Part shown: positions 50,532 to 56,489 of the stretch, in pieces
Numbering within the stretch: position 1 is the stretch's first letter
How the letters are laid out: every line of letters begins with the position of its first letter
NCBI GenBank assembly: GCA_944320385.1
Contig: CALUHH010000002.1
Span: forward strand, 62,001 to 126,000
Length of the DNA stretch: 64,000 nucleotides
Reading direction: 5' to 3'
Source: an uncultured Atopobiaceae bacterium
GTDB taxonomy: Bacteria; Actinomycetota; Coriobacteriia; Coriobacteriales; Atopobiaceae
Translations under genes and position numbers: made by a program
The notes under the pieces: model-generated
Seen by the model: the letters and a program-made list of their open reading frames with translations, nothing else
The model's database searches: none
What the model was told of the DNA's origin: nothing

Positions 50532-50871
50532 AGCTATTCCTCCCGGTTTTGGGTATAGACATCCTTCTGAATAAGCCCAGAGATTGTAAGGGTCTTGCCC
50601 CTGACCTGTCAATTTATCCTCAAAAGAATCTTTTCGGAGACCCCCGCGGGAGGTGACGCTCGCGCCAGAAAGCTTCCATGCGAGGTGGATTCATTTTTGC
50701 ATATACGCGAAATATGACGCACAAATGTTATTCTTTTCACGTTCTTCTCGTCTGAGTATTCCCAGTTTTCGACATGTTTTTATCCGCTGTTGAAAACTTT
50801 CATTCACATCGAATTCTCAGTGAAAAGTTATCTACAGACGTCGAACGGATGTCGAAAGGTGGGGCGGCGCG
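50532..50871. other. Candidate chromosomal origin oriC (rpmH side)
   Basis: About 340 bases without a gene, notably AT-rich in a GC-rich chromosome (for example around 50695-50740). DnaA-box-like 9-mers: TTATCCTCA (50614-50622), TTATCCGCT (50780-50788) and TTATCTACA (50828-50836), each one or two bases from TTATCCACA. Its place between rpmH and the dnaA side matches oriC in many bacteria. A reverse CGAGAAGAACG element lies at 50740-50750. The dnaA-dnaN gap is the alternative. Confidence 0.6.
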
Positions 50872-51840
50872 ATGGCACGGGACTTCTATCCCTTTGTGGA
50901 GGGTGACGACGCGGACGCCGCGCTCAGGGTCACCCATCCCGCGCGCATCGCCGTCTACGACGACACCGCCGCGGCCCCGCGCGTGGTCGTCGTGGAGCCC
51001 CGGGACGTCCGCGGCTACCTCGAGGAGATCACCTCCGAGGTGAGCCGCCTCTCGCGCGAGCAGGGCGGCACGATACCTTTCATGGTCATCCGCGAGATCG
51101 TGGAGAACTTCGTACACGCCTACTTCGAGGCGCCCACGATCACGATCTTGGACGGCGGCAACACCATCCGCTTCTCCGACCAGGGGCCGGGCATAAAGGA
51201 GAAGTCCCGCGCGCTCGAGTACGGCACGACCTCGGCCACGGAGGAGATGCGCCACTACATCCGCGGCGTGGGGTCGGGGCTGCCCTACGCCCAGCAATAC
51301 ATGGTCGACAAGGGCGGCAGCCTGGAGATCGAGGACAACATCGCGGGCGGCACCGTGGTCACCATCTCCACGCACCCGGCCCCCGACGCCCGCGCGCTCA
51401 CCGGCGCCGAGGAGGACCCGGCGGTCGGGGAGGGCGGCGCATGGGCGGCTCCCGCGGCCGCGCCGGCTGCGGGATGGCCCCAGCAGCCGGGCTGGGGCTG
51501 GCAGGCGCAGACGCCCTGGCCCGCCGCGGCGCCCAGCCCCTATCAACCGGCATACCAGCCCTACCAGCAGCCCTACCAGCAGACGTATGCTCCCGCGACG
51601 CCGACCCCGACAGCGGCGGCTGTGCCGGCCGCACGGCTCGACGAGCGCGGCAGGCAGGCGCTGCGCGTCGTCCTCGAGCGCGGCGCCGCGGGGCCGACCG
51701 ACCTCGTCCAGGCCTTCGGCTCCTCCGCGGCCACCTGGTCGCGCGCGCTCGCCGCTCTCGCCGCCCAGGGAGCCGTCGTCAAGCGGGGCCAGAAGTACCA
51801 GCCCACGGAGTTCGGCCAGTCCCTCGGCGGGATGATCTGA
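50872..51840 (+). CDS. GHKL-family ATPase with C-terminal winged helix, between oriC and dnaA
   Basis: 322 aa. The start has AAAGGTGG upstream. Residues 60-170 carry a GHKL ATP-binding fold: N-box in VIREIVENFVHA, G1 in FSDQGPGI and G2 in GVGSGLPYA. There is no histidine-kinase dimerisation domain. A Pro/Gln/Tyr-rich linker with PYQQ repeats (about 185-245) leads to a winged-helix-like domain (about 255-322, RQALRVVLERG and LVQAFGSSAATWSRALAAL). I do not know a named family. Position beside the origin and a DNA-binding-type C-terminus suggest a role linked to replication, transcription or sporulation-like control; this is inference. Confidence 0.82.
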   Translation: MARDFYPFVEGDDADAALRVTHPARIAVYDDTAAAPRVVVVEPRDVRGYLEEITSEVSRLSREQGGTIPFMVIREIVENFVHAYFEAPTITILDGGNTIRFSDQGPGIKEKSRALEYGTTSATEEMRHYIRGVGSGLPYAQQYMVDKGGSLEIEDNIAGGTVVTISTHPAPDARALTGAEEDPAVGEGGAWAAPAAAPAAGWPQQPGWGWQAQTPWPAAAPSPYQPAYQPYQQPYQQTYAPATPTPTAAAVPAARLDERGRQALRVVLERGAAGPTDLVQAFGSSAATWSRALAALAAQGAVVKRGQKYQPTEFGQSLGGMI

Positions 51841-51898
51841 CGGCCCCTCGTCCTTCTCGGCCGCCGAGCATCCGCCGACCGAGCAGTTGGTCGCCGGG

Positions 51899-51918
51899 TT
51901 ATCAACAATCGCTATACT
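51899..51918 (+). promoter_or_regulatory. dnaA promoter region with a DnaA-box-like site
   Basis: TTATCAACA (51899-51907) differs by one base from the DnaA box and lies just before TATACT (51913-51918), a good -10. DnaA autoregulation is plausible. Confidence 0.5.
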
Positions 51919-51958
51919 GGAGAGCGCTCTTTTTTCAACATTCGAGATTGCGAGCGCG

Positions 51959-53509
51959 ATGGAACTCTCCCTGGAATCCGACGCCGAGGCCCTGTGGCAG
52001 GACACCCTCGACCTTCTCTCCCAGCAGCAGCGGCTCCCCGAGTCGGTGCTCGCCATGCTGCGCAACTGCACGCCCGTCAGCATGGATGACGGGGTGCTCA
52101 AGCTCACCACGCCCATGAGGCTCGTCCTGAAGAACGTCTCCAAGAACGCCGGCGTGGTCGAGGAGTGCCTGACGCAGGCGGCCTTCGAGCCCATGCGCCT
52201 CGAGGTCTCCTTTGTCCCCGCCGCGCCCGCGCAGGAGGGCGCACCCGCGCGCTCGAGCATGTCGCGCGCCGAGGCTGACGCCTGGGCCGCCGACACGGCG
52301 GACGTTCGCGCGACGCCGCGCAGCATCGTCGAGGACACCTGGGACGAGCGGCGCGCCGCCGAGGCGCGCGAGGAGGAGAACCGCCGCCGACGCGCGCGCA
52401 ACCCCCTCGTCGAGGACATCTCGCAGGCGACCTCCAAGCTCACCTTTGACCGATTTGTCCGCGGCGACGAGAACGACATCGCCTACCAGGCTGCCCTCCA
52501 GGTGGCCAACGGCATGAACAGCACCTACAACCCGCTGTTCATCTACGGCAAGAGCGGCCTGGGCAAGACCCACCTGCTGCGCGCGATCCAGAACTACGTC
52601 GCCCGCAACGACCCCTCGCGCCTGTGCGTCTACCGCGACGCGTCGAGCTTCATCACCGACTACACCGAGGCGATGCGCCACTCCGAGCGCTCGGCGGCCT
52701 CGGTCCTGCGCCAGAACTACGCCGACATCGACGTCCTCATCATCGACGACATCCAGAAGATGGCCGGCAAGGCGGGCACCGTGGGCTTCTTCTTCGACAC
52801 CTTCAACGAGCTCGTGGGCAACGGCAAGCAGATCGTGCTCGCCGCCGACCGCACGCCGGCGCAGCTCGGCATGGGCAAGGACGGGTTCGACGAGCGCGTC
52901 ACGAGCCGTCTGAGCTCCGGGTTCACGACCCCCATCCAAGTTCCGAGCTACGAGCTCAAGCTCCGCCTCATCGAGACCTTCTGCGAGCGCATGCGCGAGG
53001 ACGCCGAGCGCGAGAACGTGCCGGCGCTCTCCGGGTCGGTGCCGCGCGAGGCCATGAGCTACATGGCCGAGCTCGCGGGGACCAACATCCGCGTCATCGA
53101 GGGCTTCTGCCAGCGCTGCCTGTTCGCGGCCACGGCGGCCGAGGGGCGCGGCGCCGAGATCGCGCGCGAGGAGATCGAGGGCATAGCCAAGGAGTGCTGG
53201 CCCTCCTCCATGCGCACCGTCTCGATCGAGGACGTGCAGCGGGCGGTCGAGAAGTACTACGACATCGACCACACGAGCCTCGTCGGCAACAAGCGCCACA
53301 AGGGCCTCATGGAGGCGCGCCACGTTGCGATCTGGCTCTCGCGCGAGCTCTGCGACCGCACCCTCGCCGACATCGGCAAGCACTTCGGCGGGCGCAGCCA
53401 CGCCACGGTCATGCACAGCATCGGCGTCGTCGACGAGGCCAAGCGCGACGACAAGGCCTTCTACGACCGCCTCATGACGATCCGCGAGTCCATCACGGGC
53501 AACCTCTAG
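51959..53509 (+). CDS. dnaA: Chromosomal replication initiator DnaA
   Basis: 516 aa from the ATG at MELSLESDAEALW. Domain I covers residues 1-85, a variable acidic/basic linker 90-155, and the AAA+ domain from 158 with Walker A GKSGLGKT (197-204) and Walker B VLIIDDIQ. C-terminal domain IV carries the DNA-binding signature ADIGKHFGGRSHATVMHSI. It opens oriC. The ribosome-binding site is weak. An upstream in-frame start would add an unconserved 24 residues. Confidence 0.96.
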   Translation: MELSLESDAEALWQDTLDLLSQQQRLPESVLAMLRNCTPVSMDDGVLKLTTPMRLVLKNVSKNAGVVEECLTQAAFEPMRLEVSFVPAAPAQEGAPARSSMSRAEADAWAADTADVRATPRSIVEDTWDERRAAEAREEENRRRRARNPLVEDISQATSKLTFDRFVRGDENDIAYQAALQVANGMNSTYNPLFIYGKSGLGKTHLLRAIQNYVARNDPSRLCVYRDASSFITDYTEAMRHSERSAASVLRQNYADIDVLIIDDIQKMAGKAGTVGFFFDTFNELVGNGKQIVLAADRTPAQLGMGKDGFDERVTSRLSSGFTTPIQVPSYELKLRLIETFCERMREDAERENVPALSGSVPREAMSYMAELAGTNIRVIEGFCQRCLFAATAAEGRGAEIAREEIEGIAKECWPSSMRTVSIEDVQRAVEKYYDIDHTSLVGNKRHKGLMEARHVAIWLSRELCDRTLADIGKHFGGRSHATVMHSIGVVDEAKRDDKAFYDRLMTIRESITGNL

Positions 53510-53746
53510 GACATGTAGAGGAGTCTGTAGAGATGCTGTCGAGAGGGGCGGAAAAGAGGCCGAGAGATGTTGAATGGTTTTCTACATCTGTGCGCGGTGT
53601 TGAGCGAGAAGAACGCGCACACACTTTCCCAAAGCCCTTCTCATATGTCATGAACTGCGAGTTTGTGAGTTTTTGAACTTTTTGACACGCTCTATTACTA
53701 CTACTGTTCTTATGTACTCATCTAAAGATAAGAGAAAGGGTCGCCC
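53510..53746. other. dnaA-dnaN spacer: AT-rich, possible second origin element and dnaN promoter
   Basis: 237 bases without a gene. TTTTCTACA (53579-53587) and two TGTAGAG sequences near 53516 and 53531 are weak DnaA-box relatives. A CGAGAAGAACG element lies at 53606. TTGACA at 53682-53687 may be a -35 for dnaN. Confidence 0.5.
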
Positions 53747-54853: not shown

Positions 54854-55942
54854 ATGGGACTTCTCGTCACAGAGCTCGCGCTCGCGGACTTTCGCAGCTT
54901 CGAGCGCCTGAGCGTGCGCCTCTCCCCGGGGGTGAGCGTCTTCTGCGGCCCCAACGCCGCGGGCAAGACCAACACCGTCGAGGCGCTGCAGCTGCTCACC
55001 TCCGGCCAGTCCTTCCGCCACCCGGCTCCCGCCCAGCTCGTGCGCGACGGCGCCGAGAGCGCGCGCATAGACGCGCGCCTGGAGGGGGACGGGCGGGTGC
55101 TCGACGCGCGCCTCGACGTGGTGGCGGGAAGGAGGCAGTTCTCGCGCAACGGCAAGCGCTGCCAGGCGGCCGACATGCCCGGGGAGCTGCTGTCGGTGCT
55201 CTTCACGCCCGACGACCTGGCCCTGGTGAAGCGCGGCGCCTCCGTGCGCCGCGACGAGCTCGACGACTTTGGGCGCCAGGCCAACCGCGGCTACGCCAAC
55301 GTCCTGACCGCGTACCTGCGCTCCGTCGAGCAGAGAAACCGCCTGCTCAAGGACGAGTCTCCCGACGAGGGCCTGATCGAGGCCTGGGACGCGTCGGTCT
55401 CGCTCGGCGGCGCCACGCTGCTGCACGCCCGCTTGCGCCTCTTTGCGCGCCTGGCCGCGCGCGTGAGCGAGGTGTACGGCCGCGTGTCGGGCGGGGAGCG
55501 GCTGACCTGCGACTACGTCTGCACGCTCGGCGAGGGCGTCGAGACCCTCACGCGCGACGAGCTGCGCGACCTCTTCTACGAGCGCCTGCGCGCCGGCCGC
55601 GCCGAGGACCTGCGGCGACGCCAGACCTGCGTGGGCCCGCACCGCGACGACGTGGCCTTTTCCATCGAGGGCCGCGACGCGCGCTCCTTCGGGTCGCAGG
55701 GGCAGCAGCGCACGGTGGCGCTCGCCGTCAAGATGGCCGAGGTCGCCCTCGCCGAGGAGCTGCTGGGGTCGCGGCCGCTGCTGCTGCTCGACGACGTGAT
55801 GAGCGAGCTCGACGAGGCCCGCCGCGACGCCGTCATGTCCTACGTGCGCGCGGGCATCCAGACCGTGGTGACGACGACCAACCTCGGGTACTTCTCGTCA
55901 GAGCTGCTCGACGCGGCGGAGGTGATCCGGTTTGGCGGCTGA
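54854..55942 (+). CDS. recF: DNA replication and repair protein RecF
   Basis: 362 aa SMC-like ATPase. Walker A GPNAAGKT near residue 33, ABC signature SQGQQRTVALAVKMAE, Walker B LLLLDDVMSELD. It loads RecA at gaps together with RecO and RecR. Starts six bases after dnaN and overlaps the next gene by 11 bases. Confidence 0.96.
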   Translation: MGLLVTELALADFRSFERLSVRLSPGVSVFCGPNAAGKTNTVEALQLLTSGQSFRHPAPAQLVRDGAESARIDARLEGDGRVLDARLDVVAGRRQFSRNGKRCQAADMPGELLSVLFTPDDLALVKRGASVRRDELDDFGRQANRGYANVLTAYLRSVEQRNRLLKDESPDEGLIEAWDASVSLGGATLLHARLRLFARLAARVSEVYGRVSGGERLTCDYVCTLGEGVETLTRDELRDLFYERLRAGRAEDLRRRQTCVGPHRDDVAFSIEGRDARSFGSQGQQRTVALAVKMAEVALAEELLGSRPLLLLDDVMSELDEARRDAVMSYVRAGIQTVVTTTNLGYFSSELLDAAEVIRFGG

Positions 55943-56489
55943 GAGGCCCGGGCGCGCGGCGAGAAGCGAGATCGAGGCGCGGCTCCTCAGGCGCGAGGAG
56001 AGCCCCGTTGCCGTGGGAGACGTGTTCTCCGCGGTGATGGGAGACCTCGACGCCCGGGGCTCTGTGCGTTCCACGTGGAGCGCCGGCCGCGCGTGGTACG
56101 CCGTGAACGGCGACATCGAGCGGGCCCACACGACGGGCGTGTTCGTGCGCGAGCCCTCCGGCCGCCAGACGCTGCCCACGCTGATAGTCTACGTGGACTC
56201 CCGCGCACGGGCGACCGACTTCACGGCCAACCGCGAGATCTACCTGGGGAGGCTCGAGCGCGTGGGCTGGCGCTTCGAGGAGATTCAGTTCCGCGAGTCC
56301 AAGCGCCCGGCCGCCCGGCCCGCGCCGGCCCGCGAGAGGAGGTCCTTCTCACCCGACGCGCCTCCGCTCTCGGACGCGGACGCCGCCCGGATAGACGAGC
56401 TCTGCGCCGAGGTTCCCGAGTCGCTGAGAGACAGCGTCTCTCGTGCCATGAGAGAGTCGTGGCAGCGCACATCGGGACGGAATAGCTAA
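55932..56489 (+). CDS. DUF721 / DciA-like protein
   Basis: 185 aa starting at TTG with an unusually complete ribosome-binding site GGAGGTGATCC upstream, inside the end of recF. The middle (residues 25-118) resembles the DUF721 domain: VGDVFSAVMGDL, and TLIVYVDSRARATDFTANRE with the conserved strand-helix, ending in RVGWRFEEIQFRES. DciA loads the replicative helicase in many bacteria. A basic Pro-rich linker and a helical tail (PLSDADAARIDELCAEV) follow. Position between recF and gyrB matches actinobacterial DUF721 genes. Confidence 0.8.
   Translation: MAAERPGRAARSEIEARLLRREESPVAVGDVFSAVMGDLDARGSVRSTWSAGRAWYAVNGDIERAHTTGVFVREPSGRQTLPTLIVYVDSRARATDFTANREIYLGRLERVGWRFEEIQFRESKRPAARPAPARERRSFSPDAPPLSDADAARIDELCAEVPESLRDSVSRAMRESWQRTSGRNS

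Follow-up and report, generated by a model that had tools for sequence, protein, structure and literature searches.

Most of what is known about regulators of DnaA comes from a handful of model bacteria. SirA, DiaA and HobA are taxon-specific regulators of this kind (PMC13270200), and Soj also regulates DnaA (PMC4255298). The four are lineage-restricted tuners of DnaA assembly and may be functional analogues of the GHKL protein described below. To our knowledge none of them combines a GHKL ATPase with a winged helix, and we know of no GHKL ATPase acting as an initiation regulator in any bacterium. The gene order in Firmicutes is rnpA-rpmH-dnaA-dnaN, with nothing between rpmH and dnaA. The origins of Clostridioides difficile and Bacillus subtilis are bipartite, with boxes on both sides of dnaA, in the gap towards rpmH and in that towards dnaN, the DnaA-trio being in the latter (PMC7561715).

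Among solved structures the closest GHKL protein is DIP2311 of Corynebacterium diphtheriae (PDB 3lmm), which is of unknown function. The region matched by the protein described here starts near residue 180-230 of a chain of 477-556 residues, at 15-18% identity; DIP2311 therefore has a large N-terminal domain that is missing in our protein. We take this domain to be AlbA_2-like, and DIP2311 presumably also has a winged helix after its GHKL domain. No link of DIP2311 to oriC is known to us. A glutamate four residues ahead of the N-box asparagine is the catalytic base in GyrB and MutL and the general base in SpoIIAB.

In the window (the whole 64,000-nucleotide stretch of DNA that was analysed, from an uncultured Atopobiaceae bacterium), rnpA and rpmH are encoded on the minus strand; dnaA (51959) and dnaN follow on the plus strand. 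A GHKL gene lies in the place that is empty in Firmicutes. The gene and its parts are as follows.

50872-51840, plus strand: gene for a GHKL ATPase with a winged helix, 322 aa (open reading frame with ATG start; HATPase_c 1e-8; one copy in G000).
50938-51372, plus strand: conserved N-terminal hairpin and GHKL ATPase domain, residues about 23-167 (phylum-wide identity, model and 3lmm match).
51091-51120, plus strand: N box REIVENFVHA, residues 74-83 (E75, N79 and H82 invariant in 83/83 proteins).
51178-51195, plus strand: G1 box DQGPGI, residues 103-108 (D103, G105 and G107 invariant in 83/83).
51262-51282, plus strand: G2 box RGVGSGL, residues 131-137 (G132, G134 and G136 invariant in 83/83).
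51394-51636, plus strand: variable Pro/Gln/Ala linker with PYQQ repeats (pLDDT under 50; lengths differ widely among relatives).
51640-51831, plus strand: C-terminal winged helix, residues about 257-320 (pLDDT 81-98; MarR-type structures at Z 10-12; alignable in distant relatives).

The original prediction had described a 322-residue protein with N, G1 and G2 boxes, all of which were present. The protein is placed in the GHKL ATPase superfamily by its sequence, and ATP binding and hydrolysis are predicted. HATPase_c was the sole Pfam domain above cut-off (residues 71-167, 36 bits against a gathering score of 26.4, E=1e-8) and was matched by 25/25 proteins, namely the window protein and 24 relatives. 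About 22 residues stand ahead of the conserved part, and residues about 23-167 are 40-55% identical among relatives phylum-wide. The nine ATP-site residues listed above did not vary at all in 83 distinct proteins. A GGT motif is found at residues 159-161, and the ATP lid is short and kinase-like.

An AlphaFold2 model of the window protein was built from 17 aligned Coriobacteriia sequences, and a second model was that of a short-linker relative. The former has a GHKL core, an N-terminal hairpin, a disordered lid and linker (the latter residues about 173-250) and a confident winged helix. Both models are moderate, with lid and linker at pLDDT under 50, and domain packing was left uninterpreted. 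The top solved match of the GHKL part was 3lmm in both (Z 12.5, 145 residues, 15% identity; Z 13.0 over 149 residues with the short-linker relative). Neither AlbA_2 nor HATPase_c_4 was listed by Pfam for the window protein and the 24 relatives. No solved relatives of the window protein were found by sequence; the matches of one distant relative, at E>=4e-4, were for the most part to kinases and SpoIIAB.

The PYQQ-rich linker of the original prediction is real but not constant, being variable among relatives and almost missing in L077. The DNA-binding-type C-terminus that it had proposed proved to be a confident winged helix. Residues 252-322 matched MarR-type structures at Z 10-12 with an rmsd mostly of 1.0-2.2 Å, and the winged helix is also kept in relatives, a full-length alignment showing the GHKL and winged-helix architecture end to end. 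The fold is held in common with MarR/IclR-type transcription factors, but the protein falls below their Pfam cut-offs (HTH_IclR 16.2 bits against 22; MarR_2 14.6 against 27). The protein is small, is predicted to bind ATP and probably binds DNA. Its domains are known and the architecture has one loose precedent; what is new is the deeply conserved place inside the origin.

The protein resembles SpoIIAB and RsbW in its small stand-alone GHKL domain, its N, G1 and G2 boxes and the glutamate before the N-box asparagine. A kinase of this type, or of the histidine-kinase CA type, could phosphorylate a partner such as DnaA or a response regulator. HATPase_c membership, the retained N-box glutamate and the alignable SpoIIAB structure (1tid, Z 8.7, 121 residues, 3.6 Å) are in line with such a function. 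The window protein differs from SpoIIAB/RsbW in its attached winged helix, and the spIIAB model (TIGR01925, NCBIfam) gave 11.3 bits, far under its cut-off of 135. Pfam scans of the protein and 24 relatives revealed no HisKA or other kinase part, as predicted originally, and no phospho-acceptor domain. The gene is flanked by the standard set of oriC neighbours, none of them a sigma factor or a STAS antagonist. A kinase is accordingly considered unlikely. Since the glutamate stands at the base position of GyrB, MutL and SpoIIAB, the protein could support either hydrolysis or phosphotransfer.

The N-box spacing and catalytic glutamate are shared with the ATPases of MutL, GyrB and type IIB topoisomerases, from which the protein differs in its short lid and its lack of transducer or clamp domains. 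A role in DNA repair or topology, of the MutL or type IIB topoisomerase kind and with the place at the origin a coincidence, could be proposed from the ENxIHA spacing (ENSLDA in MutL), weak MutL matches over residues 69-115 and HATPase_c_3 matches in 7/25 members. This is very improbable, however: transducer, nuclease and clamp domains are all missing from the protein, MutL models scored 9.5-11.5 bits against cut-offs of 180-840, the ATP lid is short as in kinases, and the link to dnaA is invariant. A match to an anti-sigma or MutL family was looked for and not found, both the spIIAB and the MutL models being far under their cut-offs. No NCBIfam model came near its cut-off, and PADLOC and PHROGs matches were partial and limited to common winged-helix or kinase-type parts. 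By these family tests the protein is neither a histidine kinase, SpoIIAB nor MutL.

The neighbouring genes and the putative origin elements of the window are given below, the DnaA-trio consensus being that of PMC8287927.

50397-50531, minus strand: rpmH, the upstream neighbour (from translation).
50583-50612, minus strand: promoter-like site of rpmH, TTGACA-18-TACAAT, directed away from the gene (1 found against 0.1 expected from shuffles).
50766-50796, no strand assigned: first inverted pair of DnaA-type boxes (oriC1), TTTTCGACA-N13-TGTTGAAAA.
50828-50858, no strand assigned: second inverted pair of DnaA-type boxes, TTATCTACA-N13-TGTCGAAAG, 62 bp beyond the first.
51899-51940, plus strand: candidate dnaA promoter TATACT (51913-51918) between DnaA boxes TTATCAACA (51899) and TTTTCAACA (51932).
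51959-53509, plus strand: dnaA (Bac_DnaA 1.9e-47, Bac_DnaA_C 1.7e-21).
53510-53746, no strand assigned: oriC2 gap, with DnaA box TTTTCTACA (53578-53586) and DnaA-trio CTATTACTACTACT (53692-53705).

The trio-like run CTATTACTACTACT in the dnaA-dnaN gap is unique within the window and conserved in relatives, and unwinding probably takes place there. In this the origin resembles that of C. difficile, in which the trio is in the same gap (PMC7561715). With the trio in the dnaA-dnaN gap and DnaA-type boxes in the rpmH gap, the predicted origin is bipartite and the gene lies within it: on the placing of these elements, the gene and dnaA stand between its two halves. The original prediction had set the gene between oriC and dnaA. 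Boxes do lie between rpmH and the gene, but the sole DnaA-trio lies between dnaA and dnaN, and an oriC wholly upstream of the gene was corrected to a bipartite origin with the gene inside.

Between rpmH and the gene, genomes of the window's genus have two inverted box pairs, TTWTCNACA-N13-TGTNGAAA, 62 bp apart. At least one pair was present in all 30 loci (L001-L030) and both in 23/30, slight variants being allowed. The four boxes stand at 0/22/62/84 bp, near whole helical turns, and the array ends about 13 bp ahead of the start codon of the gene. TTWTCNACA has seven sites in the 64 kb, 6/7 of them in the three gaps around the gene and dnaA. The same box word stands beside the DnaA-trio in this genus, and the array is for that reason most simply read as DnaA sites; it may possibly serve as an operator of the GHKL protein itself. 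The candidate dnaA promoter region is conserved in the genus alignment. With a promoter-like site of its own, dnaA would not need to be co-transcribed with the gene in this genus.

Outside the window's genus the four-box array is replaced elsewhere in the phylum by a triple DnaA box (0+/11-/23-) upstream of dnaA, which recurs with or without the gene (L048, L052, L056, L082, L085 and L090; also gene-less L106, L111 and L112). The triple box was rejected as the operator of the GHKL protein, being present in these three gene-less genomes and, in similar form, in L114; its presence there indicates that it serves DnaA. No other conserved operator was found in the rpmH gap in 32 lineages, only DnaA boxes and promoter words being enriched, and the winged helix is thus left with no known target.

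Several features would suit a general ATP-responsive transcription factor that acts through its MarR-type winged helix to shut down its own promoter along with other genes, dnaA being merely a read-through neighbour in the operon. Inverted repeats lie upstream of the start codon, and the gap from the stop codon of the gene to the first matched DnaA residue is operon-like, at <=21 bp, in L045, L048, L051, L056, L082, L085 and L086. The inverted boxes, on the other hand, bear DnaA-box sequence, the related triple box also occurs in gene-less genomes, and more frequent moves or duplications of such a gene would be expected. On balance a general transcription factor seems rather unlikely.

Conservation of the gene order, which had been proposed as a check, was confirmed: wherever the contigs of the examined loci (L001-L101, about 19 families) extend far enough, the gene adjoins dnaA. 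Opposite dnaA it is bordered by rpmH/rnpA, in divergent orientation, L049, L050 and L100 being the exceptions. In these three the gene and dnaA are co-inverted relative to dnaN, recF and gyrBA, and dnaN is now upstream. Such conservation, of the ATP-site residues as well as of position, rules out chance as an explanation. The oriC region is seldom rearranged, and an unrelated gene might have stayed put through inherited inertia; the whole parB-gyrA block is conserved in the genomes of the examined loci, which shows that neighbours persist without functional ties. Little credence is given to this explanation, as the gene and dnaA stay joined even where their segment is flipped relative to the remainder of the block, and the ATP site is under strict selection.

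The gene was present in 50/60 near relatives. Relatives known by name belong to Olsenella, Thermophilibacter, Atopobium and other Coriobacteriia. Sampling was confined to one phylum, Actinomycetota, across which strong matches (E<=4e-11) were found in 119/296 sampled genomes, covering all or most of residues 23-167; this number and the figure of about 19 families were counted manually in the result tables. Below the strong matches came one ambiguous match at 2e-8 and then a weak background of other ATPases. No homologues were found in phages or viral contigs. Plasmid matches were rejected as homologues, being under half-length at 29-36% identity and mostly annotated as ATP-binding or PAS proteins. 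Pairwise identity of the protein follows that of DnaN (r=0.92, means 38% and 37%, 325 pairs); the correlation with DnaA divergence was weaker (r=0.46, with partial DnaA fragments used). The divergence looks vertical.

Elsewhere in the phylum there are true absences, with rpmH and dnaA directly adjacent or the locus rearranged. The gene is missing from many of the phylum's genomes, including the 9.2-Mb G082. On the DnaA tree some gene-less genomes are nested within gene-bearing groups, which implies losses, likely including L112, L113 and L105. Presence and absence required 7 changes on this tree, at least 3 of them forced by well-supported branches. A single origin of the gene is not supported by the 7-change label, and the deep forks are poorly supported. 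In nine Coriobacteriales MAGs (G038, G039, G043, G044, G047, G050, G055, G057 and G058) the gene was apparently absent. Loss is not supported for these, in which no intact dnaA and no yidC was found, and dnaN in only two; the absences are read as assembly gaps on that account. Several of the nine are rated over 90% complete, and the origin region is probably missing systematically from their assemblies.

The replication- or cell-cycle-linked role that had been proposed from position is supported. Position next to dnaA, co-inversion with it, the invariant catalytic residues and divergence paced with DnaN favour a dnaA-linked role. The genomic data support a partnership with dnaA; we infer its mechanism, including ATP hydrolysis, dimerisation, contact with DnaA, the DNA that is bound and the sign of the effect. 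That the gene encodes a dedicated DnaA partner, a DNA-binding, ATP-gated protein that regulates dnaA expression, replication initiation or both, and is ancestral to much of Actinomycetota, is a reading for and against which we find the scales evenly set. Many genomes of the phylum lack the gene, which speaks against this reading and means that DnaA does not universally need it.

As such a partner, the GHKL domain would bind ATP and toggle the protein between two states, probably by a monomer-dimer change, with E75 available as catalytic base. The winged helix, on its flexible linker, would tether the protein to origin or dnaA-region DNA, where it would promote or restrain DnaA assembly or dnaA transcription. 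The DnaA-type boxes just ahead of the start codon suggest that DnaA in turn may control expression of the GHKL gene, closing a feedback loop. In the open-access literature, to which the search was confined (subscription journals and preprints were outside its scope), no published function or description of the GHKL-winged-helix family was found. The genomic data make the gene a strong candidate for a hitherto undescribed controller of chromosome replication timing. Sequence alone can hardly point more strongly to a missing initiation factor than by a gene that stays next to dnaA in many families and whose product has an invariant ATP site and a DNA-binding domain. This pointer concerns gut and oral Coriobacteriia and their environmental relatives, the cell cycles of the latter being almost unstudied.

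A wider proposal is made more tentatively and is rather doubtful: that a GHKL ATPase binding origin DNA and DnaA controls initiation in large parts of Actinomycetota and was lost in several lineages, and that one loss may accompany the DnaA domain-I dimer of class Actinomycetes. The residues of this dimer are conserved throughout class Actinomycetes but for the most part lacking from the phylum's other classes (PMC13270200). Their distribution may complement that of the GHKL gene, which is offered as a lead only.

Further observations were made on DnaA and its sites. The DnaA of the window's group has a very long branch, at 1.79 changes per column, and no DnaA_N domain I was found in the window DnaA by Pfam even at E 10. 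The box word has become TTWTCNACA; none of the seven window sites has a C as its sixth base. The 536-bp dnaA-dnaN gap of L088 has 18 DnaA boxes, mostly perfect TTATCCACA. In the window a 559-aa open frame runs antisense to the gene and dnaA (50800-52479, minus strand) and is probably a mere by-product of high GC coding sequence. A 185-aa ORF with no Pfam match at E 10 lies between recF and gyrB (55932-56489), in what we take to be the slot where Rv0004/DciA sits in mycobacteria.
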